Of a DNA stretch of 64,000 bases, positions 3,310 through 22,273 are shown piece by piece. The stretch's first letter is position 1. Every line of letters begins with the position of its first letter. The position numbers and the translations under genes are program-made. The notes under the pieces are model-generated. The model did no database searches and had not been told where the DNA came from. It saw only the letters and a program-made list of their open reading frames with translations. Source of the DNA: Prevotella sp. (GTDB lineage: Bacteria > Bacteroidota > Bacteroidia > Bacteroidales > Bacteroidaceae); NCBI GenBank assembly GCA_017470055.1, contig JAFUFD010000054.1:62001-126000 (forward strand). The letters run 5' to 3'.

Positions 3310-4296
3310 TTATTTTTTACGATGTAAAGTGATGACGACAATCTCACCGGGGATACCTAAGCGGAAGGGGATGAGGGCTCCAAGCCCTGTAGAGATAAAC
3401 ATAGAACGGGCTCCCTCATGAACCCAGCCACCATACTCCTTATAACTCAACGAGGCGGGGGATAGTCCCAACAACCTCACTTGTCCCCCATGAGTATGAC
3501 CGCTCAACGTCAATTGCGCCTGACACTCAGGGAGTATCTTCTCACGCCATGCGGTGGGATCATGCTGAAGAAGGATGATGAAAGGCGATTGGTTGTTGGC
3601 GATTGGCTGTTGGCTACGAATACCTTCCAATGTTTTCTTAACATCACCACGACGGGGCATTCGTTTGATAGTGCCCCAGTTCTCCATCCCTGCAATGACT
3701 ATCGAGTCACTATCCCGATGGATGACACGATGCTCATTCATGAGAAGTGTCCACCCTGCCTGTCGCTCCAACTCCTGCGTCTTCTTACAATTCGCCTCCT
3801 TGGTCAGAGAGTCGTCTGGTTGATAGATCGCATAGTCGTGGTTGCCCAAAACGGAATACAGACCGTCAGGGGCTTTCAGACGACGGAGTTGAGGAAGATG
3901 CTCGACGAGTTCTTCGGGATAGACATTCTGCAGGTCACCCGTAAACACAATCATATCCGGATGCTGCGCCAACATACTGTCTACCGCCCTTTCCAGCATC
4001 CACTTCCTGCTCCCTGTCATGGTACCGATATGCGCATCGGAAAACTGGACGATGCGATAGCCGTCGAAAGCGGCGGGGATATCCTCGCTGGCATATTCTA
4101 TATGGCGGACTTCCAACTGCTGATAGCCTACAAACAGTCCATACAGGCAAAACAGGATGGCGAGGAGCGCAAGGACTACTCCCGTCTTCCTCCCCCAACG
4201 ACGGGGCAAGAGATAACGGCAAAGGAGATACACCACCAAAGGGGTCACTAAGAAAGTGACTATGAGGAAAAAGGGGATGGCGTAGCGAGCAATCAT
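3310..4296 (-). CDS. Membrane-anchored metallophosphoesterase
   Basis: Calcineurin-like phosphoesterase of the YkuE/YaeI type. Two N-terminal membrane segments (about residues 5-28 and 40-58) precede the catalytic domain. Metal-binding motifs appear in the usual order: SDAHIGT (D87, H89), FTGDLQN (D121), LGNHDY, LLQHDP and SGHTHGGQ. Its length of 328 residues is ordinary. The segment GIRSQQPIANNQSPF is encoded by a seven-base tandem repeat (3585-3612) and is probably an inserted loop. The substrate is unknown; relatives have been linked to lipid or nucleotide phosphoester cleavage. It follows the MetH-activation gene across a repeat-filled 18-base spacer. Confidence 0.88.
   Translation of the reverse strand: MIARYAIPFFLIVTFLVTPLVVYLLCRYLLPRRWGRKTGVVLALLAILFCLYGLFVGYQQLEVRHIEYASEDIPAAFDGYRIVQFSDAHIGTMTGSRKWMLERAVDSMLAQHPDMIVFTGDLQNVYPEELVEHLPQLRRLKAPDGLYSVLGNHDYAIYQPDDSLTKEANCKKTQELERQAGWTLLMNEHRVIHRDSDSIVIAGMENWGTIKRMPRRGDVKKTLEGIRSQQPIANNQSPFIILLQHDPTAWREKILPECQAQLTLSGHTHGGQVRLLGLSPASLSYKEYGGWVHEGARSMFISTGLGALIPFRLGIPGEIVVITLHRKK
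3585..3612. repeat. Seven-base repeat inside the metallophosphoesterase gene
   Basis: Units gcgattg, gttgttg, gcgattg, gctgttg. Encodes SQQPIANNQSP. Confidence 0.75.
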
Positions 4297-5109: not shown

Positions 5110-6458
5110 CTGAAAGCGATCTCTTCTCCAATATAGTCGGTATCTACTTTCCCGTCGACATAGACGGTATGTCCGTTACACAGGGTGCGCTCCACTTTCC
5201 AAAGGAAGGTATGTCCCTCCATCGGACTCCATCCGCACTTACTCAAGATGCAGGAAGGGGTGACCGTCCAACCCGTGTTTGGACGTACCATCACCAAATC
5301 GGCACGATAGCCTGGACGAATAAACCCACGCTGGCGTATGTCAAACAGACGGGCTGGGTTATGGCACATCAACTCCACCAGTCGCTCCAGGCTCAAGACA
5401 CCCTCATCAACGAGTTCGAGCATCGTCACCAGGGAGAACTGTATCATGGGCATACCACTTGCCGCTCTGGCGCATTCTCCCTCTTTCTGAGACAGGAGAT
5501 GAGGAGCATGGTCGGTGCCAACGACGGTAATCCTGCCATCGTTCAGCGCTTGCTGCAATGCCTCTCTGTCCCGCTCTGTCTTCACGGCAGGATTGCATTT
5601 GATGCGTGTCCCTAAGGAATGGTAGTCACGGTCGGAGAAATAGAGGTGGGAGACGGTGGCTTCAGCGGTGATAGAAGGATGCGACGATGTCGCATCATAG
5701 GGGACAGGTTCCAGCAGTTCCAGTTCCTTGGCGGTGGTGAGATGGGCGACATGCAGGCAGGCATGATGCTTACGGGCAAGTTCTACGGCGAGTCTCGTAC
5801 TCTCATAGCAAGCCTCCACACTACGTATCTCGGGATGATGCGTCACCTTGGGGTCATCTCCATATCTCGCCTTAGCCTCAGCCATGTTACGATTGATGAT
5901 GGCTGTGTCCTCACAATGTGCCATCAGAGGCAGTCTGGCGGTCTTGAAGATACGCTCTAAGGATTCCCTCCTGTCTACCAACATGTTTCCTGTGGAAGAG
6001 CCCATGAAGAGTTTGATGCCCGGTATGCGGTGGACATCCAACTGTGCGAAACTATCGACATTATCATTGGTAGCGCCATAGAAGAAACTGTAATTGACAT
6101 GACTCTTCTGTCGGGCAATAGCGAATTTCTGCTCTAATGCCTCTAAGGTCGTTGTTTGGGGATTGGTATTGGGCATGTCGAAGAAAGAGGTGACACCCCC
6201 TGCTGCTGCGGCACGACTCTCACTATCGATATCGGCTTTCTCGGTAAGTCCCGGCTCACGGAAATGCACATGGTCATCAATGATGCCCGGAAGGATGTAA
6301 CAGCCCGTGGCGTTGATGACTTCACTGTCTGCGATTTGCGGTAAGCGGTTTGCGGTAAGCGGCAATATCTCGACGATATTACCATCCTCGATGATCAGCG
6401 TACCATCGAAGGTACGACCTTCATTGACAATCGTTCCACCTTCGATGACTATTCTCAT
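5106..6458 (-). CDS. pyrC: Dihydroorotase
   Basis: Zinc amidohydrolase converting carbamoyl-aspartate to dihydroorotate in pyrimidine synthesis. Motifs: DDHVHFREPG (His63, His65 metal ligands), GIKLFMGSS (the lysine that becomes the carboxylated bridge), MAHCEDTA, HVAHLTT and GTDHAPH (catalytic Asp). The length of 450 residues fits class I dihydroorotases. Residues about 32-45, LPLTANRLPQIADS, are encoded by a 35-base seven-mer repeat (6331-6365). It is translationally coupled to the downstream MetH-activation gene and starts 7 bases after the lipoprotein stop. Hydantoinase or allantoinase is less likely given the length and the HFREPG motif. Confidence 0.92.
   Translation of the reverse strand: MRIVIEGGTIVNEGRTFDGTLIIEDGNIVEILPLTANRLPQIADSEVINATGCYILPGIIDDHVHFREPGLTEKADIDSESRAAAAGGVTSFFDMPNTNPQTTTLEALEQKFAIARQKSHVNYSFFYGATNDNVDSFAQLDVHRIPGIKLFMGSSTGNMLVDRRESLERIFKTARLPLMAHCEDTAIINRNMAEAKARYGDDPKVTHHPEIRSVEACYESTRLAVELARKHHACLHVAHLTTAKELELLEPVPYDATSSHPSITAEATVSHLYFSDRDYHSLGTRIKCNPAVKTERDREALQQALNDGRITVVGTDHAPHLLSQKEGECARAASGMPMIQFSLVTMLELVDEGVLSLERLVELMCHNPARLFDIRQRGFIRPGYRADLVMVRPNTGWTVTPSCILSKCGWSPMEGHTFLWKVERTLCNGHTVYVDGKVDTDYIGEEIAFR
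6331..6365. repeat. Seven-base repeat inside pyrC
   Basis: Units gcgattt, gcggtaa, gcggttt, gcggtaa, gcggcaa. Encodes LPLTANRLPQIAD between two N-terminal strands of dihydroorotase. Confidence 0.85.
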
Positions 6459-6465
6459 ATAGTGA

Positions 6466-7179
6466 CTATTTCTGTGGTTCCTCGCCCAGTCCGTTCATCC
6501 GGTTCTCGTTCTCCTGGGCTGTCTGATAGTAGTCTTTCACGTAAGGATCGCTCTTGAACTTCGCCGTTGCCTTCGACATGATATCCTCTATCTGGGGAGT
6601 CAAGATGGGATAGCGATACTGACTGGTGATCATCATAAAGACACCGGGACCCAGCACATTGTCGAAATTCGACTCGATGAACCTCATCACCAGGTCGTCC
6701 TCCTCCTTGGCTATCTTTGTAGCCTCTGCGGAAAGTTGACGGTTGATGTCGTCCTCCTCTATACCTTCCAGTAACATCTGACTCTGCTTATGGGAGAGTT
6801 CGTTCATCTGATTAGTCAACTGGTTGTGCTTATCGATGAACTTATACAAAGAGTCGTTCATGGGAGTACCACCCACCAACTGACGCACATTGTCAATACG
6901 GATGGTGATGTCGCCTTTCTCCAGAACTACGGGCATGATGCTCTCATCGTCCATGTACAGGCTTGCCATTCGAATAGTATCGAGAAGACCCGTGAAATGG
7001 AACTCACCATGCACCACGTCACAGGAGTCTATCGTCTTATATTCATTATTCTTAATAGCCTTCAGGTATAGTTTACTGCCATCCAACGCAGAGACAGTAG
7101 AAGTGCCTTCCACGTTATAAGAACTGGCGCACGACGCTAAGAGCGCCATTATGGCAGGTAATAAAAGAAGTTTCTTCAT
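6466..7179 (-). CDS. DUF4369-type lipoprotein
   Basis: A 237-residue predicted lipoprotein: signal MKKLLLLPAIMALLASC with the lipobox cysteine at residue 17. The N-terminal half (YLKAIKN..., VVLEKGDITIRID) resembles DUF4369, the domain that in Bacteroidetes often precedes a TlpA-like thioredoxin domain. No CxxC thioredoxin motif follows; the C-terminal half is helical and charged. Probably a periplasmic or outer-membrane lipoprotein of unknown role. A -7 box TACATTTGC (7200-7208) is 20 bases upstream, so it heads the transcript that continues into pyrC. Confidence 0.82.
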   Translation of the reverse strand: MKKLLLLPAIMALLASCASSYNVEGTSTVSALDGSKLYLKAIKNNEYKTIDSCDVVHGEFHFTGLLDTIRMASLYMDDESIMPVVLEKGDITIRIDNVRQLVGGTPMNDSLYKFIDKHNQLTNQMNELSHKQSQMLLEGIEEDDINRQLSAEATKIAKEEDDLVMRFIESNFDNVLGPGVFMMITSQYRYPILTPQIEDIMSKATAKFKSDPYVKDYYQTAQENENRMNGLGEEPQK

Positions 7180-9895: not shown

Positions 9896-10929
9896 ATCAA
9901 CGTCATTCCCAACCTCTTGCATTCTTTACGCATATCGTCAGGCCAGATAGAAGCCTGTATCTCTCCGATATGTCCTTTGTGCAGGAGCACCATACACAAG
10001 CGACTCTGTCCGATACCACCGCCAATACTCAATGGCAACTCGTCGTTGAGCAGTTTCTGATGGAAATACAGCCCCTCACGCTCCTCCTTGCCCTCTAACT
10101 TCAATTGACGGAGCAAAGAGTCCTTGTCGACACGAATACCCATCGACGACAGTTCGAAGGAACGCCCTAAGACGGGATACCAGATGAGGATATCGCCATT
10201 AAGTCCTGCCAGGCCATTCTCACCGATGGTCGACCAGTCGTCATAGTCCGGGGCACGACCATCATGTTTCTCCCCGTTAGACAGTTTTCCACCAATACCG
10301 ATGATAAAAACGGCACCGTAAGCCTCGCAGATAGCATCCTCACGCTCCTTAGGTGTCTTGTCGGGATACATCTTCAGCAGTTCCTCCGCATGAATGAAGG
10401 TGATTTTCTCAGGCAAGAAGGGCTTGATCTGCGGATAAGTCTCGCAGGTCAGGTATTCCGTGCGACGGATAGCGGCATAGATACGCTCCACCACATTCTT
10501 CAGATAGGCGACAGTACGCTGCTCCTTCGTGATGACTGCCTCCCAGTCCCACTGGTCGACATACAGGGAATGGAGGTTATCCAGTTCCTCATCCGCACGG
10601 ATAGCGTTCATATCGGTATAGATGCCATAGCCAGGCTCTATCTGATACTCAGCGAGGGAGAGACGCTTCCATTTCGCCAAAGAGTGAACCACCTCCGCAC
10701 GGGCATCCCCTAAGTCCTTGATAGGGAAGGTCACGGCACGCTCCACTCCATTCAGGTCGTCGTTGATACCCAGTCCTTTGAGTACGAACAAAGGGGCTGT
10801 CACACGACGCAAGCGCAGTTCCGTCGATATATTCTGTTGGAAGAACTCCTTAATCAATTTAATGCCCTGCTCCGTCTGTTTCGTGTCGAGCAGGGACTGG
10901 TAATCGATTGGTTTAATCAGTTGACTCAT
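9892..10929 (-). CDS. asnA: Aspartate-ammonia ligase (ammonia-dependent asparagine synthetase)
   Basis: Forms asparagine from aspartate, ammonia and ATP; a class-II aminoacyl-tRNA-synthetase-like fold. Recognised from RVTAPLFVLKGLGINDDLNG, YGIYTDMNAIRADEELDNLH, VDQWDWEAVI and the C-terminal SIGGGIGQSRLCMVLLHKGH. At 345 residues it is slightly longer than the E. coli protein but complete. A -7 box TACCTTTGC (10954-10962) precedes it. A glutamine-dependent asnB is also present (43.8 kb), so the cell has both routes to asparagine. Confidence 0.95.
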   Translation of the reverse strand: MSQLIKPIDYQSLLDTKQTEQGIKLIKEFFQQNISTELRLRRVTAPLFVLKGLGINDDLNGVERAVTFPIKDLGDARAEVVHSLAKWKRLSLAEYQIEPGYGIYTDMNAIRADEELDNLHSLYVDQWDWEAVITKEQRTVAYLKNVVERIYAAIRRTEYLTCETYPQIKPFLPEKITFIHAEELLKMYPDKTPKEREDAICEAYGAVFIIGIGGKLSNGEKHDGRAPDYDDWSTIGENGLAGLNGDILIWYPVLGRSFELSSMGIRVDKDSLLRQLKLEGKEEREGLYFHQKLLNDELPLSIGGGIGQSRLCMVLLHKGHIGEIQASIWPDDMRKECKRLGMTLI

Positions 10930-10953
10930 GTCTCTATGTGTTATTTTGCGACT

Positions 10954-10962
10954 GCAAAGGTA
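10954..10962 (-). promoter_or_regulatory. -7 promoter box of asnA
   Basis: Minus-strand TACCTTTGC, 25 bases before the asnA ATG. Confidence 0.75.
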
Positions 10963-11073
10963 CTACTTTTAAACTAATCTGCAAGGAAAATTCTAAAATA
11001 TTTTGCAAAATGACACGAAATTTATTTATTTCCTTTCATTTTGCGCATGCCCTATATTATTAAAAGAGTTTAA

Positions 11074-11108
11074 AACTCTGAATTCTAAACTCTAAACTCT
11101 AAACTTTT
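11074..11108. repeat. Seven-base tandem repeat upstream of tRNA-Arg
   Basis: Five units in register: aactctg, aattcta, aactcta, aactcta, aactttt. It ends three bases before the tRNA promoter box. Confidence 0.85.
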
Positions 11109-11111
11109 TCG

Positions 11112-11120
11112 TACCTTTGC
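11112..11120 (+). promoter_or_regulatory. -7 promoter box of tRNA-Arg
   Basis: TACCTTTGC ends nine bases before the mature tRNA 5' end, so the primary transcript has almost no leader. Confidence 0.75.
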
Positions 11121-11129
11121 ACTCCAAAA

Positions 11130-11203
11130 GGTCCCGTAGCTTAGTTGAATAGAGCGTCAGATTCCGGTTCTGAAGGTCTTGGGTTTGAATCCCAACGGGA
11201 TCA
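11130..11203 (+). tRNA. tRNA-Arg(CCG)
   Basis: A full cloverleaf can be folded. Acceptor GGTCCCG/CGGGATC has discriminator A, the D-arm is GCTT/GAGC, and anticodon stem TCAGA/TCTGA holds loop TTCCGGT (anticodon CCG). The T-arm is TTGGG/CCCAA with loop TTTGAAT. CCA is not encoded. The last bases are repeated at 11301-11317, marking this gene as an integration target. Confidence 0.93.
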
Positions 11204-11215
11204 CAAAAAGGAATT

Positions 11216-11260
11216 CCCCCGAATAGAAAGTTTACTTTCGATTTCGGAGGTTTTTCTTTT
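11216..11260 (+). terminator. Rho-independent terminator after tRNA-Arg
   Basis: Imperfect stem cccccgaatagaaag / ctttcgatttcggagg with a TTTA loop, followed by tttttctttt. It ends the tRNA transcript. Confidence 0.75.
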
Positions 11261-11300
11261 TGAGGATCAGCCCGTGGCAGGGTAAGGGATGGACGAAGTC

Positions 11301-11317
11301 AATCCCAACGGGATCAC
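11301..11317 (+). repeat. Direct copy of the tRNA-Arg 3' end (attachment-site-like)
   Basis: Seventeen bases, aatcccaacgggatcac, are identical to 11188-11204 in the tRNA T-arm and acceptor. Such duplications form when an element integrates into a tRNA and restores its 3' end. No integrase and no third copy were seen in the window, so it may be a leftover of a lost or degraded element. Confidence 0.65.
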
Positions 11318-11335
11318 GATGAGTTTGAACGTTAC

Positions 11336-11380
11336 AAACGAGTCGTTTGAAGCCTCCATTCACCCTGTTTGGAGGCTTCA
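11336..11380. repeat. Palindromic intergenic repeat, copy 1
   Basis: Contains the near-palindrome AAACGAGTCGTTT (11336-11348) and a 10-bp stem GAAGCCTCCA/TGGAGGCTTC (11349-11358 with 11370-11379). The same modules occur in a different order at 43717-43778. On the minus strand it lies after the Bro-N remnant and could act as a terminator. Confidence 0.65.
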
Positions 11381-11402
11381 TTCATTACAAATTTCACTCT
11401 TC

Positions 11403-11695
11403 TTGCTCATAGTAATAGGAATAGTCGATGCCCTTTATGAAGATTTCTCGGTCATACGCTTCTTCCCATCAGAAGCTGTAAATTTCAGTTGGGTAGTATC
11501 ACTAACCAACTCACTATGTTCTTTACGCAACTTTGCTTTCAGATACTTCCAGTAGTTGCGGTTCTTCTCATGGTCATCTTGCTGATTGATAGCCCCCACG
11601 ATGTCAAGAGCCGAAAACCACCAAAGATTGCGCTCCTCGTCCCATACGGCACGAACCTTATGGTCTTTATAAAACCGGATTGATATCTTGCTCAT
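11403..11695 (-). pseudogene. Bro-N domain gene remnant, probably an internally deleted Bro-N/Fic fusion
   Basis: The minus-strand frame from 11695 encodes a Bro-N (phage antirepressor-like) domain: RFYKDHKVRAVWDEERNLWW, FSALDIVGAI and LVSDTTQLKFTASDGKKRM. It stops at 11435 after only 86 residues, just where such proteins normally continue. In another frame the DNA right after the junction reads REIFIKGIDYSYYYEQEE and then stops (about 11403). From memory of the family this looks like the C-terminus of Fic/DOC-type proteins. The simplest reading is a deletion joining the two ends out of frame; the Fic assignment of the tail is inference. Confidence 0.6.
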
Positions 11696-11710
11696 GATTA
11701 CCTATGCCTA

Positions 11711-12841
11711 CTATTTCTTTAGGAACTTACAGAACTCAACAAGACTGCGCTGAATGACACTGCCTACTTGTAACTGCTCTTTATACAGGGCTACCATCGT
11801 TGGTGACATGCTTCGGTTCAAAGCAAAGCGCACCACTTCCATGTCAGCATCTTTGCACAGAACAATGCCGATACTTGGATTCTCATTCGACCGGCGTTCT
11901 TCTTGGTCTAATGCTTCCAAGTAGAACTCCAATTGTCCCAAATCTTTTGGATGAAATTCGGTAGTCTTCAACTCAATGGCAACCATACATTGCAGCAGTC
12001 TGTGATAAAAGAGCAAATCTACTTTGAATGTCTTGCTGCCCACCGTTACCCTGTGCTCCTCATCGATAAACAGGAAGTCCTTACCCATTTCCAGAATAAA
12101 GTCCTTCATGTGTGCAATAATCTCCTTCCTTAACTTCGTCTCTTTGTACTCCAAAGGAAGTCCCAGCATTTCAAGATACACCCTGTCCTTGAAAAGAAGC
12201 GATGAGGTTGGGTAAGTCTTTGTCATCATCTCCGATTGCACATCTTTTCCGCCAAACAACGAATTAATCGTGTTGGTTTTTATTGCTCGCAGAAGTTCTT
12301 TGTTCTCCAGATGTTCCTTCCCTGCATAAAGCATATAGAATAGGCGTTCCGTGTCAGATTTACATCTGTTCAAAATTATCTGGTGATTCGTCCAACCTGT
12401 TGCAAATAGCACGTTCGGAATTTGTGCCATTTTAAATGGCACAATTAAACTTCCATCAATTTGTGCCGTTTCAAATGGCACAATATCACCATACTTCGAC
12501 ATATCCATTTCTTCTATCAATGCAGAGAAAGATGCGGTAGTGTAGGTATCGTACAATTGAACCATTTTATATAGTGTACGATAACTCCAGCCTCTTGCTG
12601 CTGGATTTTTTGTCCGTATATAATCAGATAGTTGTCTGACGACTCCATCACCCCATGCAGATGTCTTTAGTTTGTGTGAGACATATCCTCCAACTTCCCA
12701 CACCATTGACATTGACTCGTTGTTAACAACACGTACAACCCTTTTCCGATGAGTTGCAATGATGCTGTATACGGTTTCAAACTCCTCTCTATGATTCAGA
12801 AGTTCATCACCCAAATTTGTTTTTTCTATATTGTCACTCAT
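11711..12841 (-). CDS. DUF1016/YhcG-family PDDEXK nuclease domain protein
   Basis: An N-terminal DUF1016 helical region (VNNESMSMVWEVGGYVSHKL, ARGWSYRTLYKMVQLY) is followed by a PDDEXK nuclease-like domain. There KVDLLFYHRLLQCMVAIELK gives the D...ELK active site, and GQLEFYLEALDQEER supplies the trailing Gln. The family is frequent in defence islands and next to restriction systems; its activity here is not proven. The start MSDNIEK at 12841 is preferred over one five codons upstream because the -7 box TAACTTTGC (12853-12861) would leave no room. 376 residues, apparently intact. Confidence 0.85.
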   Translation of the reverse strand: MSDNIEKTNLGDELLNHREEFETVYSIIATHRKRVVRVVNNESMSMVWEVGGYVSHKLKTSAWGDGVVRQLSDYIRTKNPAARGWSYRTLYKMVQLYDTYTTASFSALIEEMDMSKYGDIVPFETAQIDGSLIVPFKMAQIPNVLFATGWTNHQIILNRCKSDTERLFYMLYAGKEHLENKELLRAIKTNTINSLFGGKDVQSEMMTKTYPTSSLLFKDRVYLEMLGLPLEYKETKLRKEIIAHMKDFILEMGKDFLFIDEEHRVTVGSKTFKVDLLFYHRLLQCMVAIELKTTEFHPKDLGQLEFYLEALDQEERRSNENPSIGIVLCKDADMEVVRFALNRSMSPTMVALYKEQLQVGSVIQRSLVEFCKFLKK

Positions 12842-12852
12842 AATTCTTGCTT

Positions 12853-12861
12853 GCAAAGTTA
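12853..12861 (-). promoter_or_regulatory. -7 promoter box of the DUF1016 gene
   Basis: Minus-strand TAACTTTGC, eleven bases before the start. It lies mostly in the spacer after the GIY-YIG gene stop. Confidence 0.6.
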
Positions 12862-13182: not shown

Positions 13183-13337
13183 GATCTTCAGTCTTCATTT
13201 ATAGTTCACTCTAAGGAAACCTTGCTCATTAATAAAAGTTACGTATACACTTAAAGTCTTATTATTGCAAATTATTGTTATTCGCAGGCTTTTGTGTCCA
13301 TCTCCAGAGACTGTTAATTATATATGGAGAGAATTAA
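13183..13337. other. AT-rich spacer
   Basis: No open frame is supported here. A short inverted repeat TCTCCA...TGGAGA (about 13301-13328) lies just downstream of the HEPN-like gene and could stabilise its 3' end; it lacks a clear T-tract. Confidence 0.4.
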
Positions 13338-14063
13338 TTAATGTTGTTCGTAATTGATAAGATGGACAAGTTCCTCTAAAACTATCCTAAGTCCTGCTTT
13401 TATAGAATCAACATCAGACTTTTTCGCATTGAATCGCCTATTATGTGCACTCAAATCTCCCATCTTCTTAATTTTGGGAAGTTCCTGCGCTGTGTTACGC
13501 CCAATAGTCCATAACGTTTTTTCTTCCAATAGGCAATCAATCAGATCCCCACAAAAAAGATAATTGTTGTTTTTATCTAAAATGCGTTCTTTAATTCCCC
13601 TATGTTCAAATAGTTCAATTGTCAAAGTTTCTATTAATCGCCTCAGCATTACCAAGCAGCCATCATATATCCCATAATCGTAACATAAGATGGCCTGACG
13701 TGCGGTTTTCTTCAAGTAATCCCGTGTATTATCAAAGATATCTATTGGAAATAAGTCCGTCGATGGAGCCTTTACTTTTATTTCACCGATATCATCAGCA
13801 ATAGCATCAGACACCTTTTTAGATAAAACATAACCATCTTTCCCCTTTAATAATCGCTTTGCTCCTTTTTCTTTAGAGAGGTAGGCGGATATATTGGAAT
13901 ATGATGGCAAATGCAGTTGGACAAAACAATCATCAATAGCTTTTGCTGTAAAAGACTCTTTTCCTAAGTATGTAACCAAGAAATAGCCGAAATATGGAAT
14001 TTGCTCAGATGGCTTTTTGTCTTCAAAACCATCTATTCGTTCAATATACTCTTCAAGTGTCAT
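13338..14063 (-). CDS. DUF4145/HEPN-like protein, last gene of the type III R-M operon
   Basis: 241 residues. The N-terminal 95 residues look like a winged-helix module (YFGYFLVTYLG..., IDDCFVQLHLPSYSNISAYL, GYVLSKKVSDAIADDI). The C-terminal half is helical and resembles DUF4145: LVMLRRLIETLTIELF, then IKKMGDLSAHNRRF at the position where HEPN-type domains carry their Asn/His signature. HEPN domains are often ribonucleases or toxins in defence systems, but catalysis here is inference. Its ATG overlaps the stop of the zinc-ribbon gene (ATGA), so the two proteins are probably made in fixed ratio and may form a complex. Confidence 0.7.
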   Translation of the reverse strand: MTLEEYIERIDGFEDKKPSEQIPYFGYFLVTYLGKESFTAKAIDDCFVQLHLPSYSNISAYLSKEKGAKRLLKGKDGYVLSKKVSDAIADDIGEIKVKAPSTDLFPIDIFDNTRDYLKKTARQAILCYDYGIYDGCLVMLRRLIETLTIELFEHRGIKERILDKNNNYLFCGDLIDCLLEEKTLWTIGRNTAQELPKIKKMGDLSAHNRRFNAKKSDVDSIKAGLRIVLEELVHLINYEQH

Positions 14064-15187
14064 TGAATTTTCATTTTTTGTTCAACTTCGTTAATACCTT
14101 GAGTTGTCACATTTAGATTAGAGACATTTTCTATCCATCCTTTTTTGCTGATTGTATCAATAAGACTTTGGTATATATCATTAGGTATTGTTAATTTCAG
14201 ATGCCGATAACATGTATATATATGGTCTTGGTTAACAGCATCTATACAAAGAATCTGCTTTAAATAATACACAAACAAAAGATTTATCTGGGGAGAACTT
14301 TTACCATATTTATAATGCTCCATAAAAACGTCCAGAGTTTCTTTGTTTTTTGGCATTAAATCCAAATCCCTAACAAGTTGCGGGTTCTTCCGTTTAGATG
14401 AAACTTTGGCGGTTGTTGTTTGACCACTACCGCCATTAGATTTCCACGCCCCTTCTATTGTTTTATCAAATACTTCATTGAGAATCTCTTTTGCTTTCTC
14501 CTCCCCTTCTGGAGACAATTCTAACGTATCATTATCTGCAATAATGTAAGAACGATGCTTAGACAACCATGCACGGAAACCACCATCATAAATATTTTCT
14601 TTTTTCAATATATTATTCACATCTTCTCGAGTTACCTCTTTCCGGACAACTACTTTATAATATAAAAGGAATAATAAGCAAATTCGAGCTTGTTGGTCAC
14701 GCTTCGAATTCGCTTTCAAACGTTTCTCATATAATACTATAGACTCTCCTTTGACAGTGAAGATGTTGTTTATCTTATTAAGGTCTTCAGTATTACCAGG
14801 ATTAATATTATTTATTTCAATGGCTGGATCAACTACTTCTTGTGCATTAGCGTCTTCTGTTTGCGAGATTCGTAATAAAGACTGATGCTGTTGTGTGCTA
14901 GGATTACGTTTAATCGGTAAAAACTGAGCAAATACATCAACTACATTTCCTGCTGTTTCATCTGAGAAAGAAGCTTCAAAAGATTTCCCGGTTTCTGTTT
15001 CTGAATATTTAATATGATTTACATTCGCTTGCACTTGACGTAGTTTTATCTCTTTTCCACAATAAACACATATTGGGGAGTTCGCTATTAAAGGCTCTCC
15101 ACAACCCAGACAGATAATCTGCTTATTACACTTATAACAAAACTTTGCCCCATTTGGCATTTCCTGATTACAAAACTGACATTTCAT
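14060..15187 (-). CDS. Double zinc-ribbon protein with two winged-helix-like modules
   Basis: 375 residues, no named family recognised. Eight cysteines at 3, 6, 17, 20, 26, 29, 40 and 43 form two CxxC-CxxC zinc ribbons. A middle region carries FEASFSDETAGNVVDVFAQF. Two similar modules follow: one from about 168 (LLFLLYYKVVVRKEVTREDV, ending LELSPEGEEKAKEILNEV) and one from about 290 (LLFVYYLKQILCIDAVNQDH, ending LNVTTQGINEVEQKM). Both have the length and pattern of winged helices. It sits 14 bases behind mod and overlaps the HEPN-like gene. A DNA- or protein-binding partner of the restriction enzyme is plausible but unproven. Confidence 0.65.
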   Translation of the reverse strand: MKCQFCNQEMPNGAKFCYKCNKQIICLGCGEPLIANSPICVYCGKEIKLRQVQANVNHIKYSETETGKSFEASFSDETAGNVVDVFAQFLPIKRNPSTQQHQSLLRISQTEDANAQEVVDPAIEINNINPGNTEDLNKINNIFTVKGESIVLYEKRLKANSKRDQQARICLLFLLYYKVVVRKEVTREDVNNILKKENIYDGGFRAWLSKHRSYIIADNDTLELSPEGEEKAKEILNEVFDKTIEGAWKSNGGSGQTTTAKVSSKRKNPQLVRDLDLMPKNKETLDVFMEHYKYGKSSPQINLLFVYYLKQILCIDAVNQDHIYTCYRHLKLTIPNDIYQSLIDTISKKGWIENVSNLNVTTQGINEVEQKMKIQ

Positions 15188-15201
15188 ATGCTTCTCGATT
15201 A

Positions 15202-17103
15202 TTAGTTAAAATCATGTTCCAATTGATAGATTGTCTCGTCCCCACAGATATTGCGGATTTTCATGCGGAGGGGCTTGTTGTCACTATTGATGGTGGCATC
15301 CCAGAAGTCTTGGGACTTGATGCCGTTGCGGATGGCGTATCCGAGGCGGTCTATCTTGATTTCAGCATCGCTGTGCCAAGGGGCTTTCTCGTCGGCAGTG
15401 GTGCAGTCAAGGCTTATCCATTCGATGGTTTCAAGTCCTTCTTCACTGATGACAATAGATTTGAATTCTTTTTCCTTACCTTTGGCTTTCTGTTGCAATG
15501 TCTGTTGCTGCCCTTTCAGATTGATTTCATCAATCTTGCGAAGAACACGGTCACTATGGAAACTCTTGATTTCTACTTTCCAGCCCGTCCAAAGGGCATC
15601 GTGGGTTTCACTAACTTCCCATTTGGCTTCATCTTCCACTACCACATCATCCAACACTTGTTTCAGGTCTCGGAGTTCGATGTCAATAGTTGTTTGGTCG
15701 TTCTGCTCTTTGATGAACTGCTCAATTTCCTGTTTGTCTGTAATGTCAATGTAATAGACAATAACGCGTTTCGTCTCATCTGGCAAATCGGGCAGAGCCT
15801 CACGGATGATTCGATTCATCAAGGGCTTATCGAGCAAACGGGTACTGCTGTCCATCAAGTTGGGCAGATAGACGGGCATCATACCATATTTCGTATCTAC
15901 GATGCTTCCTTCCCAAAATTTGTCAAGCGCATCTTCGTTTCGCAGTCCTTTTATCAAGCTTTTCAATTTGTCCATCGTCTGAACAGGATTACGATAAAGT
16001 GATACACCGTCTATAATTTCAAATACATCAAATTCTACCTTGTCTGCCAACAAACGGTCTCTGGTTGTTTGAATGCTATTTACATTGATGTCACAATGAA
16101 TAAAGTTGCGTCCTAATTTGTTTGCTACAGCAGCGGTTACACCACTCCCTCCAAAGAAATCTGCAACCAACATACCCTCATTACTACTGGCTTTTATAAT
16201 ACGCTCTAATAGGGCTTCTGGCTTTTGAGTAGAGTAATTCTTCGCTTGTTCAGAATTGCCTTTTACAACAGATAATTGCCATACTGTTTCGGGAATTTTA
16301 CCCATTTCTGCGTCTTTAGCAGTATATTCGAACCTTTTCCCTTGAGAATTTATCAAATAACGAGTTGTTTTATAACGTTCTTTTGATGCCTCTAATAGAG
16401 GTATTCGGACATCATCTCCATTGAACACAAAGTTTTCATCCTTTTTGTACCAAAAAATTGTATCATGTTTTGGGACAAATTTAGATTCTGGTCGACCAGG
16501 TGAGTCTGGATAATACCAAATTATCTCATTTAAAAAGTTTTGTTCTCCAAAGACTTCATCCATCAATATCTTCACATAATGTCCTATATGGTAATCCAAA
16601 TGCACATAAATACTTGCATCATCGCTCATGATGCTCTTCATAGCCATGAGGTTCTCATACATCCAGTTGAGATAACGCTCTTTATCCCATATATCACCAT
16701 ACATCTTTTCTTCAAAGGCTTTCAGTTCCTCAATGTCAAGTTCGCTTTCAGCCTGAGCAATCGCTGCAGCCACCTTTGGATTTCGACGTATATACACTTT
16801 CTTGGCATAGTCGGCACCACTGGCAAAGGGTGGGTCAACATAAATAAGATCAATAAAGATTCCTTTGTCTTTCAGATAAGCACAAGCGGAAAGACACTCG
16901 CCCCTAATCACCATATTGTGATTGGGATTATCACCTACTTGCTCTTTTAACTCCATCTCATAGAGAGGCATGCCCCGTTCTATACGTTCTATGACTTGAT
17001 CGTTGTCACGATAGCGCAGCACACGCTTGGTGCGCACAAAGTTGTCTAATATTGCTTGCCCTTCAAGCGTATTGGGGAAATAGGGAACGTATTTGATAGC
17101 CAT
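15202..17103 (-). CDS. Type III restriction-modification DNA methyltransferase (Mod)
   Basis: Beta-class N6-adenine methyltransferase of 633 residues. Motif IV DPPF is at 90-93 and precedes the AdoMet-binding motif I DFFGGSG (about 315-321), the beta-class order. The N-terminal IERGMPLYEMELKEQV and ENLMAMKSIMSDDASIYVHL are typical of Mod subunits. Residues from about 340 on form the target-recognition and subunit-contact region. It is 12 bases downstream of res, so the order is res-mod, opposite to the classical mod-res. No simple repeat tract suggesting phase variation was seen. Target sequence unknown. Confidence 0.9.
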   Translation of the reverse strand: MAIKYVPYFPNTLEGQAILDNFVRTKRVLRYRDNDQVIERIERGMPLYEMELKEQVGDNPNHNMVIRGECLSACAYLKDKGIFIDLIYVDPPFASGADYAKKVYIRRNPKVAAAIAQAESELDIEELKAFEEKMYGDIWDKERYLNWMYENLMAMKSIMSDDASIYVHLDYHIGHYVKILMDEVFGEQNFLNEIIWYYPDSPGRPESKFVPKHDTIFWYKKDENFVFNGDDVRIPLLEASKERYKTTRYLINSQGKRFEYTAKDAEMGKIPETVWQLSVVKGNSEQAKNYSTQKPEALLERIIKASSNEGMLVADFFGGSGVTAAVANKLGRNFIHCDINVNSIQTTRDRLLADKVEFDVFEIIDGVSLYRNPVQTMDKLKSLIKGLRNEDALDKFWEGSIVDTKYGMMPVYLPNLMDSSTRLLDKPLMNRIIREALPDLPDETKRVIVYYIDITDKQEIEQFIKEQNDQTTIDIELRDLKQVLDDVVVEDEAKWEVSETHDALWTGWKVEIKSFHSDRVLRKIDEINLKGQQQTLQQKAKGKEKEFKSIVISEEGLETIEWISLDCTTADEKAPWHSDAEIKIDRLGYAIRNGIKSQDFWDATINSDNKPLRMKIRNICGDETIYQLEHDFN

Positions 17104-17115
17104 AGCTTATATGAT

Positions 17116-19968
17116 TTACATGTTAAAGAATTCTTTAATGGCAGCAAGCGTCTTCTGGCGGCGCTGCTCTGCGGTTAGTGTATCTTCTAAGTAGAGGAAG
17201 TCGAAACGCTGATAGTCAAACTTCTCATTGTTTTTCTTTATCCATTCTGACTCCATGAACTTCCGACGGTCAACAAACTTAGCAGCATAGCCCTCGCCTT
17301 TGGTCTCGATGATGATGACCTTATCTATTTGCCCGTCTTCATTTCGGCTCAGCATAAGGAAGTCCGGTACATACTTTCCAATGTAATGCCATTGTTTGCC
17401 CACCTTATTATAACAATTGATCTTGAATTGAGTTAAAGTATCGTCACCATTGAAATAGACTTCTAGGGCTTTTCCCTTAATCAATGGTAATATCTCTTTG
17501 GAGAAATAATCAATCTCCAATCCACTATCAAAATGATATGGTAAATAATGGTATGTTTGCGAACGCTCAGGATGAGGGTCTGCTTGTGGTTGAAGTACGG
17601 AAGCAGGCAATTTTCCTTGTTTAACCATCAGTTCAAGCATAGTTCTTTCTTCTGGGCTAAGCGTGGGGTGGTCTGCAGGTTTTTCGTCCCATTCCATGAT
17701 TTCGTGTACATCCTGTTGAGATGGGTAATAGTTCTCATTGTCTTCAACAGGAGATAAGAACTTCTCTATTTGCAAGAGCTGGGCTTGTTCAGGAACGACT
17801 TCTTCCATCACTTTGAAATCTCGGATAGGAGCAAAAGCCTGACGGATTAGTGAACGTATGCGCTGATGGTCGTAACGTTTATTTTCTATTACTAAACCAT
17901 CTTTCTCCGTTGTTATCTTGCTGAAGATACGGCGCAGTTCAACCTCGTAGGTTTTGAGTTCTTTTACAGACAGTATTCCGAAACTCTCTTTCGAAATCTG
18001 CTGCAACCACCATTGAAATGAAATAGTGGTTGATTCATTGTTTTCCTGCTCATATGATGCAAGCAGTTTACCTTCCATGTTCTGCTGATGAATCAATGAA
18101 ATGGCTGATTCGACCATCATCTTTTCATCCTGTAAACGCTGTTGGGGATTATTGGCATCATCTACTATCAGTGTCTCATAACTTACCTTCAATTGGTAGA
18201 AGTCAATGGGCGGCACCTGCATACGCTCCATACGGGAGAAGCGTTCTATCAGTTTGGGGGTAGATGGCGATTTGCTGCTAAACTCTTTAAGCGTAATATT
18301 CTGTTGCTGTTCCAACTGACGGTTGAGTTTGTCGGCATTGAATTTGTTCAGCCATATCAGGGCAGTCTCTTGGCTGTGCTTAACGACCTGACGAAGACAA
18401 CGACAACTGGTTTGTAATACCATGTTAGTAGGGCAAACTCCCTTTTGCGGAAGAATGACACCCGTCAGGCTTTTGCAATCCCAGCCTTCTTTACCTATTT
18501 GGACAAGAAGAACTATCTTTTTCTTTGATATTGTGGTGTCTAATGATGCAAACTCCGTTCCAGAACCCTCTGGCTGCGGATATTGTTTATTGCCTCCATG
18601 ATACTTCAAAACAACATCCGTTGGATTTAGACCATACGAGGCGACAATTTCAGCAACAAGTGGATAAATAGTTTCTTCCAATGTCTCTATTTGTCCACAA
18701 TAAATTGCCAATTTCGCACAAGTGCCGTTAGCATATTCTGTATCACGATATTTATCAAGGAACTCCTTGACGCCATTAGTAACAATGGCTTCCATATCAT
18801 TATCAGAGAATTTTACGTCAGGAACTTTAAGGAAATTGCCAATACCTTCAATCAGCGGATAGTAATACACCACATTGGCAAGGTCGGTGTTCCTGATGGA
18901 AAACTCATCAGATAATGCTAACCGCTCAGCACCATCCAAATAGGGCGTACCAGAGAAACCGAGGACAGAATTAAAGGTGTTCTTTTCTGTCCATTTATTG
19001 ACAACTTGCCTTAGTTTGATTTCTCCATCAGCGGCATGGTGGACCTCATCAATATAGATAGCAAGATTGGGAAGATTACCGATGATTTCTCTTAGTTCAT
19101 TAGCAAGTTTTATCCTCTCCAATTCCCCTTCGTCAAAAAGTGATAACTCATAATTATCAGAATAACGGTCAAGGATAACTTTTTCTGCATTTGTGATGGC
19201 GACCAGACCTATTAAGTCTTCTAATGGCTGATGGTTATTGATTTTTTGGGCATTAGGATTCTTGATACGATTGCTTTTGTTGGTAGTCTTCTGCTCGTCA
19301 AGGATTTCAAACTTTATCAGTCGTTTCAACTGGGTCGCAGTAGGTTCAGGAATAATCCATGCAGGGTCAAATTCTTTGATATGCTTCAAACTCGGCACAA
19401 TAGAAGACTTCAAACCAGAAGGAGCCATCACCATGAAATTATGGGCAAAGCATGGATTATCTAACTCATTGATAGCAAAATACAAATCCAAATAGATGAA
19501 GGCTGCCATTAGATAGGTCTTGCCTGCACCCATTGGGAGACTGAAAATATAGTCCGTATAAGTAACGTCATAGAATATCTGTTTGAACGTTGCTTCGTAA
19601 TCTATCTCATCTGCATGCTGCTTGATATAGGAGTCCAATTCTGGAGCAAGTTGTTTCCCCTTTTTGTCTTTTAGACGTGAGTATTGAAAAAGGGCAACTG
19701 CAGCCTTATTGGTACTGAATATTTTTCTTGCTGTTTCTGTCAGTTCAACTTGTCCGATATTCGTATCATTGAAGACACCATCTACAAAAAGTTTCCATAA
19801 CGGCTGATTCTTGCAGGCAATTTTCAAAAACAAATAGGTTTTGATTGCCTCCAACTGTGCATCACGCATCATTCCTCGCTGCTCTATATATTGAAACAGT
19901 TTACTGATGGGGCAATCATCAGATGTCAACCATTCATTCCGTTTTTTTTCTATTAGTTTATAGAACAT
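17116..19968 (-). CDS. Type III restriction enzyme, helicase-nuclease subunit (Res)
   Basis: 950 residues. SF2 helicase motor: motif I PMGAGKT (about 145-151), DEAD-box-equivalent IYIDEVHHAADG, motif III-like GFSGTPYLDG, and later QIGKEGWDCKSL with LQTSCRCLRQ containing the arginine fingers. The C-terminus has a PDDEXK nuclease: YVPDFLML (D869) and IIIETKGEGYA (E888, K890). All expected motifs are present, so it looks functional. It is the first gene of a four-gene operon driven by the -7 box at 19988-19996, and requires the adjacent Mod for site recognition. Confidence 0.92.
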   Translation of the reverse strand: MFYKLIEKKRNEWLTSDDCPISKLFQYIEQRGMMRDAQLEAIKTYLFLKIACKNQPLWKLFVDGVFNDTNIGQVELTETARKIFSTNKAAVALFQYSRLKDKKGKQLAPELDSYIKQHADEIDYEATFKQIFYDVTYTDYIFSLPMGAGKTYLMAAFIYLDLYFAINELDNPCFAHNFMVMAPSGLKSSIVPSLKHIKEFDPAWIIPEPTATQLKRLIKFEILDEQKTTNKSNRIKNPNAQKINNHQPLEDLIGLVAITNAEKVILDRYSDNYELSLFDEGELERIKLANELREIIGNLPNLAIYIDEVHHAADGEIKLRQVVNKWTEKNTFNSVLGFSGTPYLDGAERLALSDEFSIRNTDLANVVYYYPLIEGIGNFLKVPDVKFSDNDMEAIVTNGVKEFLDKYRDTEYANGTCAKLAIYCGQIETLEETIYPLVAEIVASYGLNPTDVVLKYHGGNKQYPQPEGSGTEFASLDTTISKKKIVLLVQIGKEGWDCKSLTGVILPQKGVCPTNMVLQTSCRCLRQVVKHSQETALIWLNKFNADKLNRQLEQQQNITLKEFSSKSPSTPKLIERFSRMERMQVPPIDFYQLKVSYETLIVDDANNPQQRLQDEKMMVESAISLIHQQNMEGKLLASYEQENNESTTISFQWWLQQISKESFGILSVKELKTYEVELRRIFSKITTEKDGLVIENKRYDHQRIRSLIRQAFAPIRDFKVMEEVVPEQAQLLQIEKFLSPVEDNENYYPSQQDVHEIMEWDEKPADHPTLSPEERTMLELMVKQGKLPASVLQPQADPHPERSQTYHYLPYHFDSGLEIDYFSKEILPLIKGKALEVYFNGDDTLTQFKINCYNKVGKQWHYIGKYVPDFLMLSRNEDGQIDKVIIIETKGEGYAAKFVDRRKFMESEWIKKNNEKFDYQRFDFLYLEDTLTAEQRRQKTLAAIKEFFNM

Positions 19969-19987: not shown

Positions 19988-19996
19988 GCAAAGGTA
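19988..19996 (-). promoter_or_regulatory. -7 promoter box of the res-mod operon
   Basis: Minus-strand TACCTTTGC, 19 bases before the res ATG. It is the only box seen between res and the AbiJ-like gene. Confidence 0.7.
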
Positions 19997-20011: not shown

Positions 20012-20821
20012 CTAAGCAAACTTTCCATTCAAATAGTTAATAAAAGCAGTACATGTAACCAGCATAAACTTTGCTTCATGGTAAGTTGGTACATAAGTTC
20101 CGTTTTCATCCATCAATTCATGACGAATGCCACTTTGCTTTTCATTAACGTAATTATATAAATTACTAAATGCTGCTTTCAACTGTGGATGAAGCAATCC
20201 ATGTTTCTTCTCTAAAGCAGATAAGGCTTTCCCTAAATCATTCTCTCCCGCCATTTCTCGACAAAGAGCACCAACAGCAGATATAGACTCTTTAATTGAA
20301 TTTCTATAATCAGGGGCTTCTTTGTCTGCTAAATGTAATAAAGCACGATTTAGATGCTCTTTTATGTTGCCTTTTGCATTATTGATAGCCTCTTCAATAC
20401 TCTCTATCTCTTCTTTTGCTGTTATAGGTGTTACACGATTGTTTATGATCCTATATCCATAGTTAAGACGTTCAAATTCTGAATTAAGCTCAGATGCGAA
20501 TCTTTTACAAGAAGAAAAATCCCTAATTCGATAGAAATAATCAATTAAAAATTCTATTAAGTCCAGTTTTTTATACCACTCTATTTTGTCATTGGTAATA
20601 TATGGATTAATCATATCATAGTATGACCGAGAAGAAAAGCCTTCTCCTTTTTCATTAAAAAAATGTACACATACTTCTCTTTGTATTTCTGGAATATCAA
20701 TGTCATATTTCAAGTTGTCAAAACAATTGAATATAGCATTTACTATCCCTTTCGGCATACATTCAACAATAATTGCCTCAGAGGGTTTTATATATCCATA
20801 TCTTTCTGAAAATAAATTCAT
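20012..20821 (-). CDS. AbiJ_NTD4/HEPN-like abortive-infection family protein
   Basis: 269 residues. The N-terminus (LFSERYGYIKPSEAIIVECM and following helices) resembles the AbiJ N-terminal domain 4 found in abortive-infection proteins. The C-terminal third is a helical HEPN-like domain with the characteristic SGIRHELMDE followed by EAKFMLVTCTAFINYL. GIRH is typical of this group. It lies upstream of res on the same strand but is separated by a promoter. Expression probably starts from the duplicated control region at 21.0 kb through a 51-codon frame. The function in phage exclusion is inferred from the family only. Confidence 0.7.
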   Translation of the reverse strand: MNLFSERYGYIKPSEAIIVECMPKGIVNAIFNCFDNLKYDIDIPEIQREVCVHFFNEKGEGFSSRSYYDMINPYITNDKIEWYKKLDLIEFLIDYFYRIRDFSSCKRFASELNSEFERLNYGYRIINNRVTPITAKEEIESIEEAINNAKGNIKEHLNRALLHLADKEAPDYRNSIKESISAVGALCREMAGENDLGKALSALEKKHGLLHPQLKAAFSNLYNYVNEKQSGIRHELMDENGTYVPTYHEAKFMLVTCTAFINYLNGKFA

Positions 20822-20859: not shown

Positions 20860-21015
20860 TCATCCAACCCCTTCCGCTATACGAGAAATACTTAGTATCT
20901 TGATAGGCTCTTGACGTATCAAGTCCTTTGCCTTGATGCTGATGGTTGGAAGAAAGTCGGCAAGAGGACGACTTTGCGGTTTGTGAGGATCACCATTCTG
21001 TTGATTATTCGACAT
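20860..21015 (-). CDS. 51-residue open frame of unknown function preceding the AbiJ-like gene
   Basis: Starts MSNNQQNGDPHKPQSRPLAD and ends EPIKILSISRIAEGVG. The first six codons and everything upstream match the start of the Fic gene almost perfectly, then the sequences part. It ends 38 bases before the AbiJ-like ATG. Either a real small protein or a truncated gene that kept a shared promoter and start. No domain recognised. Confidence 0.45.
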   Translation of the reverse strand: MSNNQQNGDPHKPQSRPLADFLPTISIKAKDLIRQEPIKILSISRIAEGVG

Positions 21016-21111
21016 ATATCTATGATTATTTTGGTACAAATATACAAAAAAGATAGCAAAGGGGGCTCTTTATTTCTCTCTTTTTTGTATCTTTTAGCAA
21101 AAGGTTATTGC
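20999..21111 (-). repeat. Duplicated control region, copy A (AbiJ side)
   Basis: Direct repeat of 22134-22246. Block 20999-21061 differs from 22134-22196 at one position. An 18-base centre is diverged, then cttttttgtatcttttagca (21080-21099) is identical. It contains an inverted repeat ATACAAAAAAG (21042-21052) / CTTTTTTGTAT (21080-21090) and a -7-like TATATTTG (21037-21044, minus). The terminal 15 bases are inverted relative to copy B. Confidence 0.85.
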
Positions 21112-21118
21112 TTTTCTA

Positions 21119-22150
21119 CTACTTAACTTCCCAATGACCAGTTTTGTTGCTACCTACTCTGACTATCAGTCCTTGATTCTTCAATTCGCCAAGACGACGT
21201 TTGATGGTAGCCTCTGATACGCCAAGTTTCGATGCGTATTCTGCATAGTTGAGGGTTCCATCCTTTGCAAGGACCTGATATAGTTGTTGCTTTATCGGGT
21301 CAGAAATTGAATTTATCGGGTCAGAAGGAGTCGTTATCGGGTCAGAAGATTGTGATTTCTTATATTCCCCAATCTCTTTATTGATATTCCTGATATGTTC
21401 TTCCAGCATAAAGGAGCGGAATGGAGCAAGCGAATCCTGCTCTCGAGAATCAACCAGAGCCTGAATATATTCCGCTTTGTCCTCCTTAATGATTTTTACA
21501 GGAACTAAACCAAATTCGTATTGCAGATGGTTCATTATCAAGCGAGACATACGTCCGTTACCGTCCACCCACGGATGAATGGTCACCAACTGATAGTGGG
21601 CATCAAAACTTAACAGATATTTGGCGATCTCATCGTCTGTCTGGAGTAATTGACGGCGATGCTCGTTTAGTTGTTGACAGAACTCCGCTAACTTCATAGG
21701 AACTTTCTGGAAATTCATATATGAGCGACCGCCAATGCCAGCCGTTACACCCACCAAGCGCAAGTCACCTTTTGACGCATCAGAAACTCCTTGTGCTGTA
21801 TTGTAGATTCCACCAGTATTCTTCATCACAACAGCAGACATATCTTTCAGCATATCAATAGAGAAGTCCTTGTGCTCGTGAGCCAATCGCATAGAATATT
21901 CGTAGGCTGCTTTTAGGTCGATATTCATCATTTGCTCCTGTATACTTCGCCCTTTGGCAGAGATGCCTTCATCAAACAACAACTGGTTTTCTATCTCCGT
22001 TACCGTCGATCCTTCTATTGCCGTAGAGTGGGTGATCAGAGAATATAGATAGAACTTCTGGTAGTCTATCTGCTCCGCTATACCCAGAGAACGGTATTCG
22101 TCCAAAGTCCTAAGAAGTATTTGTGCCAATATTTGTTGATTGTTCGACAT
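21119..22150 (-). CDS. Fic family protein with C-terminal winged helix
   Basis: Predicted protein AMP-transferase. The start MSNNQQILAQ at 22150 is chosen because eight upstream codons lie in the promoter. It has the class II inhibitory motif STAIEG (about residues 42-47), the catalytic loop HPWVDGNGRMSR (about 192-203; consensus HPFxDGNGRxxR), and a linker of three SDPI-type heptapeptides. The C-terminal winged helix (NYAEYASKLGVSEATIKRRL) suggests DNA binding and possibly autoregulation through the inverted repeat in its own promoter. 343 residues, intact. The target protein is unknown. Confidence 0.88.
   Translation of the reverse strand: MSNNQQILAQILLRTLDEYRSLGIAEQIDYQKFYLYSLITHSTAIEGSTVTEIENQLLFDEGISAKGRSIQEQMMNIDLKAAYEYSMRLAHEHKDFSIDMLKDMSAVVMKNTGGIYNTAQGVSDASKGDLRLVGVTAGIGGRSYMNFQKVPMKLAEFCQQLNEHRRQLLQTDDEIAKYLLSFDAHYQLVTIHPWVDGNGRMSRLIMNHLQYEFGLVPVKIIKEDKAEYIQALVDSREQDSLAPFRSFMLEEHIRNINKEIGEYKKSQSSDPITTPSDPINSISDPIKQQLYQVLAKDGTLNYAEYASKLGVSEATIKRRLGELKNQGLIVRVGSNKTGHWEVK
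21292..21347. repeat. 21-base minisatellite in the Fic linker
   Basis: Three copies of ttatcgggtcagaa at exactly 21-base spacing (21292, 21313, 21334) encode heptapeptides beginning SDPI. Gain or loss of units would change linker length without a frameshift. Confidence 0.8.
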
Positions 22151-22246
22151 ATATCTATGATTATTTTGGTACAAATATACAAAAAAGATAGCAAAGGAAT
22201 CTCTTTACTACCATCTTTTTTGTATCTTTTAGCAATAACCTTTTGC
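22134..22246 (-). repeat. Duplicated control region, copy B (Fic promoter)
   Basis: Partner of 20999-21111. Inverted repeat arms are at 22177-22187 and 22215-22225, the -7-like TATATTTG at 22172-22179 (minus). The arms are conserved while the 18-base centre differs, as expected for a selected operator. Its terminal 15 bases (22232-22246) are the reverse complement of those in copy A. Confidence 0.85.
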
Positions 22247-22264
22247 ATTTCCCTCGATTTTTCG

Positions 22265-22273
22265 TATCTTTGC
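22265..22273 (+). promoter_or_regulatory. -7 promoter box of pepT
   Basis: TATCTTTGC, 25 bases before the pepT ATG. TTTTGC about 18 bases upstream (22241-22246) may be the -33 element and lies in the flipped 15-mer of repeat copy B. Confidence 0.75.

Follow-up and report, generated by a model that had tools for sequence, protein, structure and literature searches.

The window analyzed here is a stretch of 64,000 nucleotides from Prevotella sp. (GenBank assembly GCA_017470055.1, contig JAFUFD010000054.1, positions 62,001 to 126,000), and the system in question is a row of four genes on its minus strand: the restriction gene res, the methyltransferase gene mod, and two accessory genes, denoted A and B, in this order, with intergenic gaps of 12, 14, and -4 bases. 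The res gene (17116-19968, 950 amino acids) encodes a superfamily 2 helicase with a C-terminal PD-(D/E)XK-like nuclease, mod (15202-17103, 633 amino acids) a beta-class N6/N4 methyltransferase, A (14060-15187, 375 amino acids) a protein with a double zinc ribbon and two related domains, and B (13338-14063, 241 amino acids) a protein with an N-terminal domain common with A and a C-terminal DUF4145/HEPN-like domain; all four frames are open. A single TAnnTTTG box (TACCTTTG, 19989-19996, minus strand), which we take to be of the -7 type by the Bacteroidetes -7 consensus, starts 28 bases 5' of the res start and is itself preceded by a TTG. The gene order, the gaps, and the single box upstream of res agree with the initial annotation of this DNA. 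No TAnnTTTG occurs within 200 bases of the starts of A or B in the window, and the sole such box before mod lies at -178, inside res.

In Mod, DPPF (90) precedes FFGGSG (315), the motif order of the beta class, and the protein matches the Pfam family N6_N4_Mtase (E = 7.4e-51), the PADLOC model MTase_III (8.3e-56), and, over a part of the length only, the Mod chain of EcoP15I (2.7e-15). Res carries GAGKT (147), DEVH (307), and a C-terminal PD...ETK, in line with the catalytic motifs initially ascribed to both enzymes. The match of Res to Pfam ResIII reaches only 29.1 bits (cut-off 22.5), and that to RE_endonuc, 17.9 bits, is under the cut-off of 23.4. At E values up to 1, no PADLOC model matches Res, not even the curated REase_III models, which do recognize the Res protein of another locus with A and B, L060 (1.7e-160). 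Solved structures gave no useful match to Res either (best E = 0.0068 over 45 residues). Because of the low ResIII score and the absence of a PADLOC type III Res match, we prefer the name type III-like. The system resembles the EcoP15I-type type III restriction-modification (R-M) systems in its beta-class Mod and in a Res with helicase and C-terminal nuclease motifs, and differs in lacking a REase_III match and in gene order: type III systems usually have mod before res, whereas in the window res comes first.

The double zinc ribbon initially proposed for A is borne out by a Pfam DZR match (E = 4.4e-8) that passes the Pfam cut-off, with eight cysteines arranged as four CxxC. By hhalign, B begins with a domain homologous to the C-terminal one of A (probability 95.8, E = 7.7e-9), and the middle domain of A is more weakly related to its C-terminal domain (76.4, E = 2.2e-5). 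No homology was seen between the B N-terminal domain and the middle domain of A (1.1, 0.05) or, in a control comparison, between the two C-terminal domains. Judging from their pattern, the related domains of A and B may be winged helices. The assignment of B to DUF4145/HEPN survives as a weak match (E = 0.013), which at 15.9 bits is under the curated cut-off of 23.1; in the alignment of B, four of the six members match DUF4145 at E up to 1, the best at 2.7e-4. A HEPN-type effector is plausible, as first suggested, but the RX4-6H motif is missing from B of the window, and hence its RNase activity, part of the same suggestion, is putative only.

No PADLOC model matches window B at E values up to 1, and at this threshold neither A nor B of the window matches the PADLOC models of PD-lambda-5 and PD-T7-3. 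Among solved structures, none matched B, and the best match of A (E = 0.32) is not useful. The initial annotation knew no named system of such composition, and indeed the A/B family matched none.

A/B pairs in other genomes

One genome per species (84,980 in all) was scanned with two peptide patterns, which yielded at least six loci with B, a lower bound because only these two patterns were scanned. One locus (L059) contains the same operon as the window. In L060, A (77.5%) and B (93.8%) follow a different, canonical type III pair. In L061 (A 68%, B 82%), no type III genes were seen and the pair follows a tyrosine recombinase gene. Stand-alone A/B pairs are present in two Mucilaginibacter loci (L062 and L063) and in L064 (Edaphocola). 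Further pairs were found in L074, L075, L057, L010 (an Ochrobactrum plasmid), L076, and L077. The effector of B in L076 is a RiboL-PSP-HEPN domain (2.1e-13), and the effector of L077 matches the same PADLOC model. In L011, the A frame overlaps a different HEPN-like partner carrying RNKRGIGH. With near-identical loci counted once, this gives 12 distinct loci of A with a HEPN-type partner. The plasmid pair (pLM19O1, L010 11387-12753) is A/B-like without the zinc ribbon and has RNMAAH in B.

The two genes are coupled to each other, as had been assumed: they are adjacent, with gaps of -8 to +10, in all 11 aligned pairs, and they have a homologous domain in common. The adjacency is partly a selection effect, since a pair was counted only when a relative of A adjoined B or a HEPN-like gene. 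Between the window and L060, the ratio of nonsynonymous to synonymous substitution rates is 0.14 for A and 0.07 for B.

The search for A gave matches in seven of 251 genomes, only two of which (G000 and G163) match beyond the zinc-ribbon stretch. Several matches remained uncounted. In G315 (L058), a gene resembles the C-terminal half of B (45% identity), with neither the B N-terminal domain nor a relative of A; G390, G392, G635, and G1142 (L080, L081, L082, and L078, respectively) have C-terminal matches only, with no A relative adjoining. In G491 (L079), the sole other locus matching the B N-terminal domain, this match has an internal stop, the frames are without match to the query set, and no relative of A was seen. 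The match in G467 was also left out of the pair count.

No type III res or mod was recognized near A/B in 10 of the 12 distinct loci. Among the loci searched, type III genes were found only in L060, which together with the window makes two of 12. The flank upstream of A covers 381 bases in L075, 1087 bases in L057, and at least 6.7 kilobases elsewhere, L063 being measured in place of L062. Within the loci examined, the homologues of the pair thus mostly lie away from res-mod, an outcome that the initial annotation had named as evidence against its own inference.

TAnnTTTG occurs within 65 bases of A in five of nine stand-alone Bacteroidota loci (mononucleotide shuffles give a mean of 0.55, and none of 2000 reaches five), and in neither the window nor L060. 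Further, 12 genes that follow mod in 11 relatives all lack such a box within 150 bases. Taken together, the boxes of the stand-alone A genes and the lack of boxes behind mod suggest a dependence of docked modules on the promoter of res.

In L061, the gene directly upstream of A (5879-6784) encodes the tyrosine recombinase (Phage_integrase, 1e-38), and a short frame before A in L075 (89-322) resembles, by eye, the end of such a protein; a tyrosine recombinase is a possible route by which the pair moves. Close relatives of A/B on mobile elements were sought in plasmids, phages, and viral contigs, and not found. Plasmids gave no match to window A or to B of L064 and a single partial one to window B (58% covered), which has no match in phages. 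In viral contigs, searched by a few peptide patterns, no relative of window A or B was confirmed.

The place behind mod in related loci

Of 149 relatives, 17 have a Res match, as do 30 of the 299 genomes of the genus; the two sets overlap, and the window genome and a few partial matches are counted in each. Apart from the window, 29 res-mod loci were read, in two sets of 14 and 15; the partial or degenerate Res matches of G720, G689, and G933 are outside this set, and G857 is the Prevotella genome to which L059 and a second locus, L094, belong. The 29 loci overstate the number of independent events, since L042 and L121, as well as L043 and L122, look like the same orthologous sites. In all 29, mod adjoins res or is one gene away, and in five a same-strand gene lies between them: YhcG (L041), PDDEXK_3 (L051), Bro-N (L052), ORF6N (L118), and RhuM (L120). 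Some loci are damaged or partial, with mod in two frames (L044), res in two frames (L053), or res cut by a contig end (L125).

Neither A nor B is present in any of the 29 loci, for which reason we reject a role of the two as integral type III subunits. The place behind mod is taken by other genes. Of the 27 informative loci, that is, those with more than 100 bases beyond mod (L049 and L052, whose sequence stops within 100 bases, are excluded), 21 have a same-strand neighbour behind mod, and all 21 were scanned with Pfam. Defence families follow mod at a distance of at most 67 bases in seven loci: AbiH in L043 and L122 (apparently one orthologous site), SIR2_2 in L044 and L119, a NACHT-like protein in L050, GmrSD_N in L117, and, directly behind mod in L124 (7352-8909), a 204-amino-acid gene and then Kiwa KwaB (E = 6.5e-55). 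Kiwa and AbiH are independent defence systems, and therefore a gene may stand behind this mod without belonging to the R-M system. The initial view that the two extra proteins belong to the type III system is thus not upheld by the related loci.

In L045, two overlapping genes (10412-12155) lie 94 bases behind mod and match neither Pfam nor PADLOC; this pair is possibly a further docked module. The res-mod family as a whole offers a natural series, with AbiH, SIR2, NACHT-like, GmrSD, Kiwa, and A/B behind related mod genes, for testing whether co-expression gives cooperation.

Proposed module, alternative readings, and recent history

With a probability of about two in three, we suggest that A/B is a self-standing two-gene defence module, which is docked behind mod and uses the res promoter. 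By its zinc ribbons and two related domains, A would be a sensor or regulator, whereas B would join an N-terminal domain like that of A to a HEPN-type effector at the C terminus. In the Prevotella lineage of the window, the module would have settled directly after the mod gene of an operon that is type III-like and begins with res, where A/B, having no promoter box of their own, would be transcribed from the res promoter. Restriction would form the first barrier and A/B would act separately, probably as a back-up, in which A would sense infection and the ensuing attack of B on RNA would lead to growth shutdown. Such a reading distinguishes an obligate restriction subunit from an independent module on a restriction promoter, which the operon reading merges.

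Several points weigh against it. Four of the nine stand-alone A genes have no box, and at a chance expectation of about 0.03 boxes per 65 bases the absence of boxes before the docked genes says little alone. The search for type III genes at the A/B loci used profiles of the window Mod/Res family and the L060 type III proteins only. Among the same-strand genes that follow mod, the remaining 14 are no clear defence genes, namely TerB-type genes at 181 bases (L042 and L121, apparently one site), housekeeping-looking genes (L041, L054, L125, L127, and L129), and neighbours without a clear family (L045, L046, L047, L118, L120, L128, and L130). RX4-6H is absent from B not only in the window but also in L060, L061, L062, L064, L074, and L075, with the histidine kept in all seven.

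The recent history of the operon also speaks in part for a closer tie between the four genes. The tract 13250-19968 is near-identical (99.5-99.7%) to the Prevotella genome of L059/L094: from res to B there are 21 mismatches in 6719 bases, compared to 347 in 6137 bases of the flank (Fisher p = 3.6e-86). The flanking genes are about 94% identical, Fic 96.1% and the intermediate abiJ 98.9%, and identity drops about 90 bases past the B stop. Hence res, mod, A, and B were recently exchanged together, unless the metagenome assemblies mislead (that of the window has 6.84% contamination). The single transcription unit initially proposed is probable. The second such point comes from L060, where a decayed copy of the 3' end of the window mod family (15202-15247 in the window) lies in the spacer upstream of A. 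Its local score is 47, whereas 500 shuffles reach at most 28 and the stretches before four other A genes 12-17; the C-terminal tail of Mod is of the CGDE, AGDE, or SGDE type in 16 aligned sequences. This remnant suggests that the L060 pair once stood behind a window-type mod, and the restriction genes of L060 may later have been replaced by another type III pair. L060 has thus kept A/B beside a type III system although its original mod is reduced to a tail remnant, which functional dependence would also predict.

In the L059/L094 genome, res is split over two contig ends (L059 1-141 and L094 1-141; window 18690-18698), with about 140 bases missing from the window, an 18-base inverted likeness, and a common 9-base stretch of res. 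Apparently an insertion sequence or transposable element has entered this gene, to judge by the ends. Since they look like such an insertion, res is probably broken there, whereas mod, A, and B are intact.

Dependence is central to the alternative that survives best, namely that A/B guards the type III enzyme: B would be inactive as long as Res-Mod works, and its release would follow if restriction were blocked or overloaded by a phage, by analogy with PrrC and EcoprrI. This would account for the operonic position, the joint exchange, and the presence of the pair behind type III systems of two different families (window and L060), and there is the precedent of PrrC and of R-M-linked HEPN genes (PMC3710099, PMC12707154). 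We nevertheless consider it unlikely, given that no type III system was recognized in 10 of 12 loci, that A/B is missing from all 29 other res-mod loci, and that a conserved linkage to R-M, as for PrrC, is not seen (two of 12 A loci). Moreover, the window and L060 are not two independent associations, because the mod-tail remnant shows one origin, and A and B are intact in the genome whose res has apparently been split by an insertion sequence. A broader version seems quite unlikely to us: in it, the 3' end of the res-first type III-like operon would be a general expression slot for exchanged, autonomous, mostly abortive modules under the restriction promoter, and A/B, with a zinc-ribbon/winged-helix sensor and an interchangeable HEPN effector, would serve there as a type III guardian kept after enzyme replacement, as in L060.

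It is hardly probable that the modules are chance neighbours in a defence island with no transcriptional or functional link. The AbiJ_NTD4, Fic, YhcG, and DUF4357 genes around the operon and the many different genes behind mod in relatives would fit this, but not the gap of 14 bases without a box before A, while five of nine stand-alone A genes have one, nor the joint exchange from res to B. Finally, that B is an RNA- or protein-binding regulator rather than a toxin, and A/B controls the expression or activity of the neighbouring restriction genes, is very improbable: the seven B proteins without RX4-6H but with the histidine and the domain common to A and B would agree with it, but the partners in L057, L010, L076, L077, and L011 carry the motif, and in most loci there are no type III genes that could be regulated.

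Combinations of R-M with HEPN are known from the literature, and the module proposed here may be compared with them. PrrC, a HEPN anticodon nuclease in the type IC R-M locus of EcoprrI, resembles B as a HEPN-type gene in an R-M operon with a restriction-plus-suicide logic; it differs in having an ABC ATPase domain and a type I locus, whereas the window has a zinc-ribbon partner, a type III-like R-M system, no conserved linkage, and a B without RX4-6H. Anantharaman et al. 2013 (PMC3710099) link PrrC and at least 16 HEPN clades to R-M and catalogue DUF4145 genes "in operon with R-M". B resembles the latter, but is under the DUF4145 cut-off, and no comparable zinc-ribbon partner is described in the passages considered. 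R-M guardians are described in PMC12707154. PD-lambda-5, from an E. coli functional screen, appears to be a compacted system of R-M and abortive infection, according to PMC9519451. Relatives of B show weak matches to PD-Lambda-5_A (L055, 4.4e-5; L074, 8.2e-5) and to PD-T7-3, which comes from the same screen (L057, 1.3e-7; L010, 0.0012); window B itself lacks such matches. Similarly, the HEPN domains of the B partners in L076 and L077 match the PADLOC candidate PDC-M34B (3.9e-14 and 3.2e-13, respectively), whereas their A genes match no PDC-M34 model and window B has no match.

Among the titles and abstract beginnings listed from the open-licence literature, neither the res-mod-zinc ribbon-HEPN operon nor the A/B pair is described. 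As far as these searches reach, the A/B family and its differing HEPN effectors are new, as is the range of modules found after mod in a single res-mod family. A/B is a small modular system with a HEPN-type partner in the 12 counted loci and a variable catalytic motif, so that gain and loss of RNase activity can be tested.

Surroundings of the operon

The operon lies in a defence island, as judged by the AbiJ_NTD4, Fic, DUF4357, YhcG/DUF1016, and BRO-like genes around it. An AbiJ_NTD4 gene (20012-20821, minus strand; PADLOC candidate PDC-S32), absent from the initial annotation, is directly upstream of res and ends 43 bases before it, and it may be a companion of res-mod. In L128, a distant locus of the res-mod family, an AbiJ_NTD4 gene (11118-11936) is likewise directly upstream of res, with 70% protein identity and a gap of 43. 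The Pfam and PADLOC scan of the window placed a Fic gene beyond AbiJ_NTD4 on the upstream side. The downstream side has genes of the DUF4357 and YhcG/DUF1016 families, besides a short frame that resembles BRO weakly (E = 0.086). The YhcG/DUF1016 gene (11711-12856) is missing from the corresponding place in L059, where an open frame of 222 amino acids (5982-6650) has a relative in the window, namely the short BRO-like frame (11435-11695).

Between the island genes there is a repeat, about 139 bases long, that forms a hairpin (DNA folding z-score -4.5). The window genome has two long copies (22134-22272 and 20999-21116 in the window). In L094, copies lie around a Schlafen/AlbA_2 gene (2450-2588, 4018-4121, and 5139-5277), and a 52-base piece (1582-1633) is situated upstream of the type III operon of L060.

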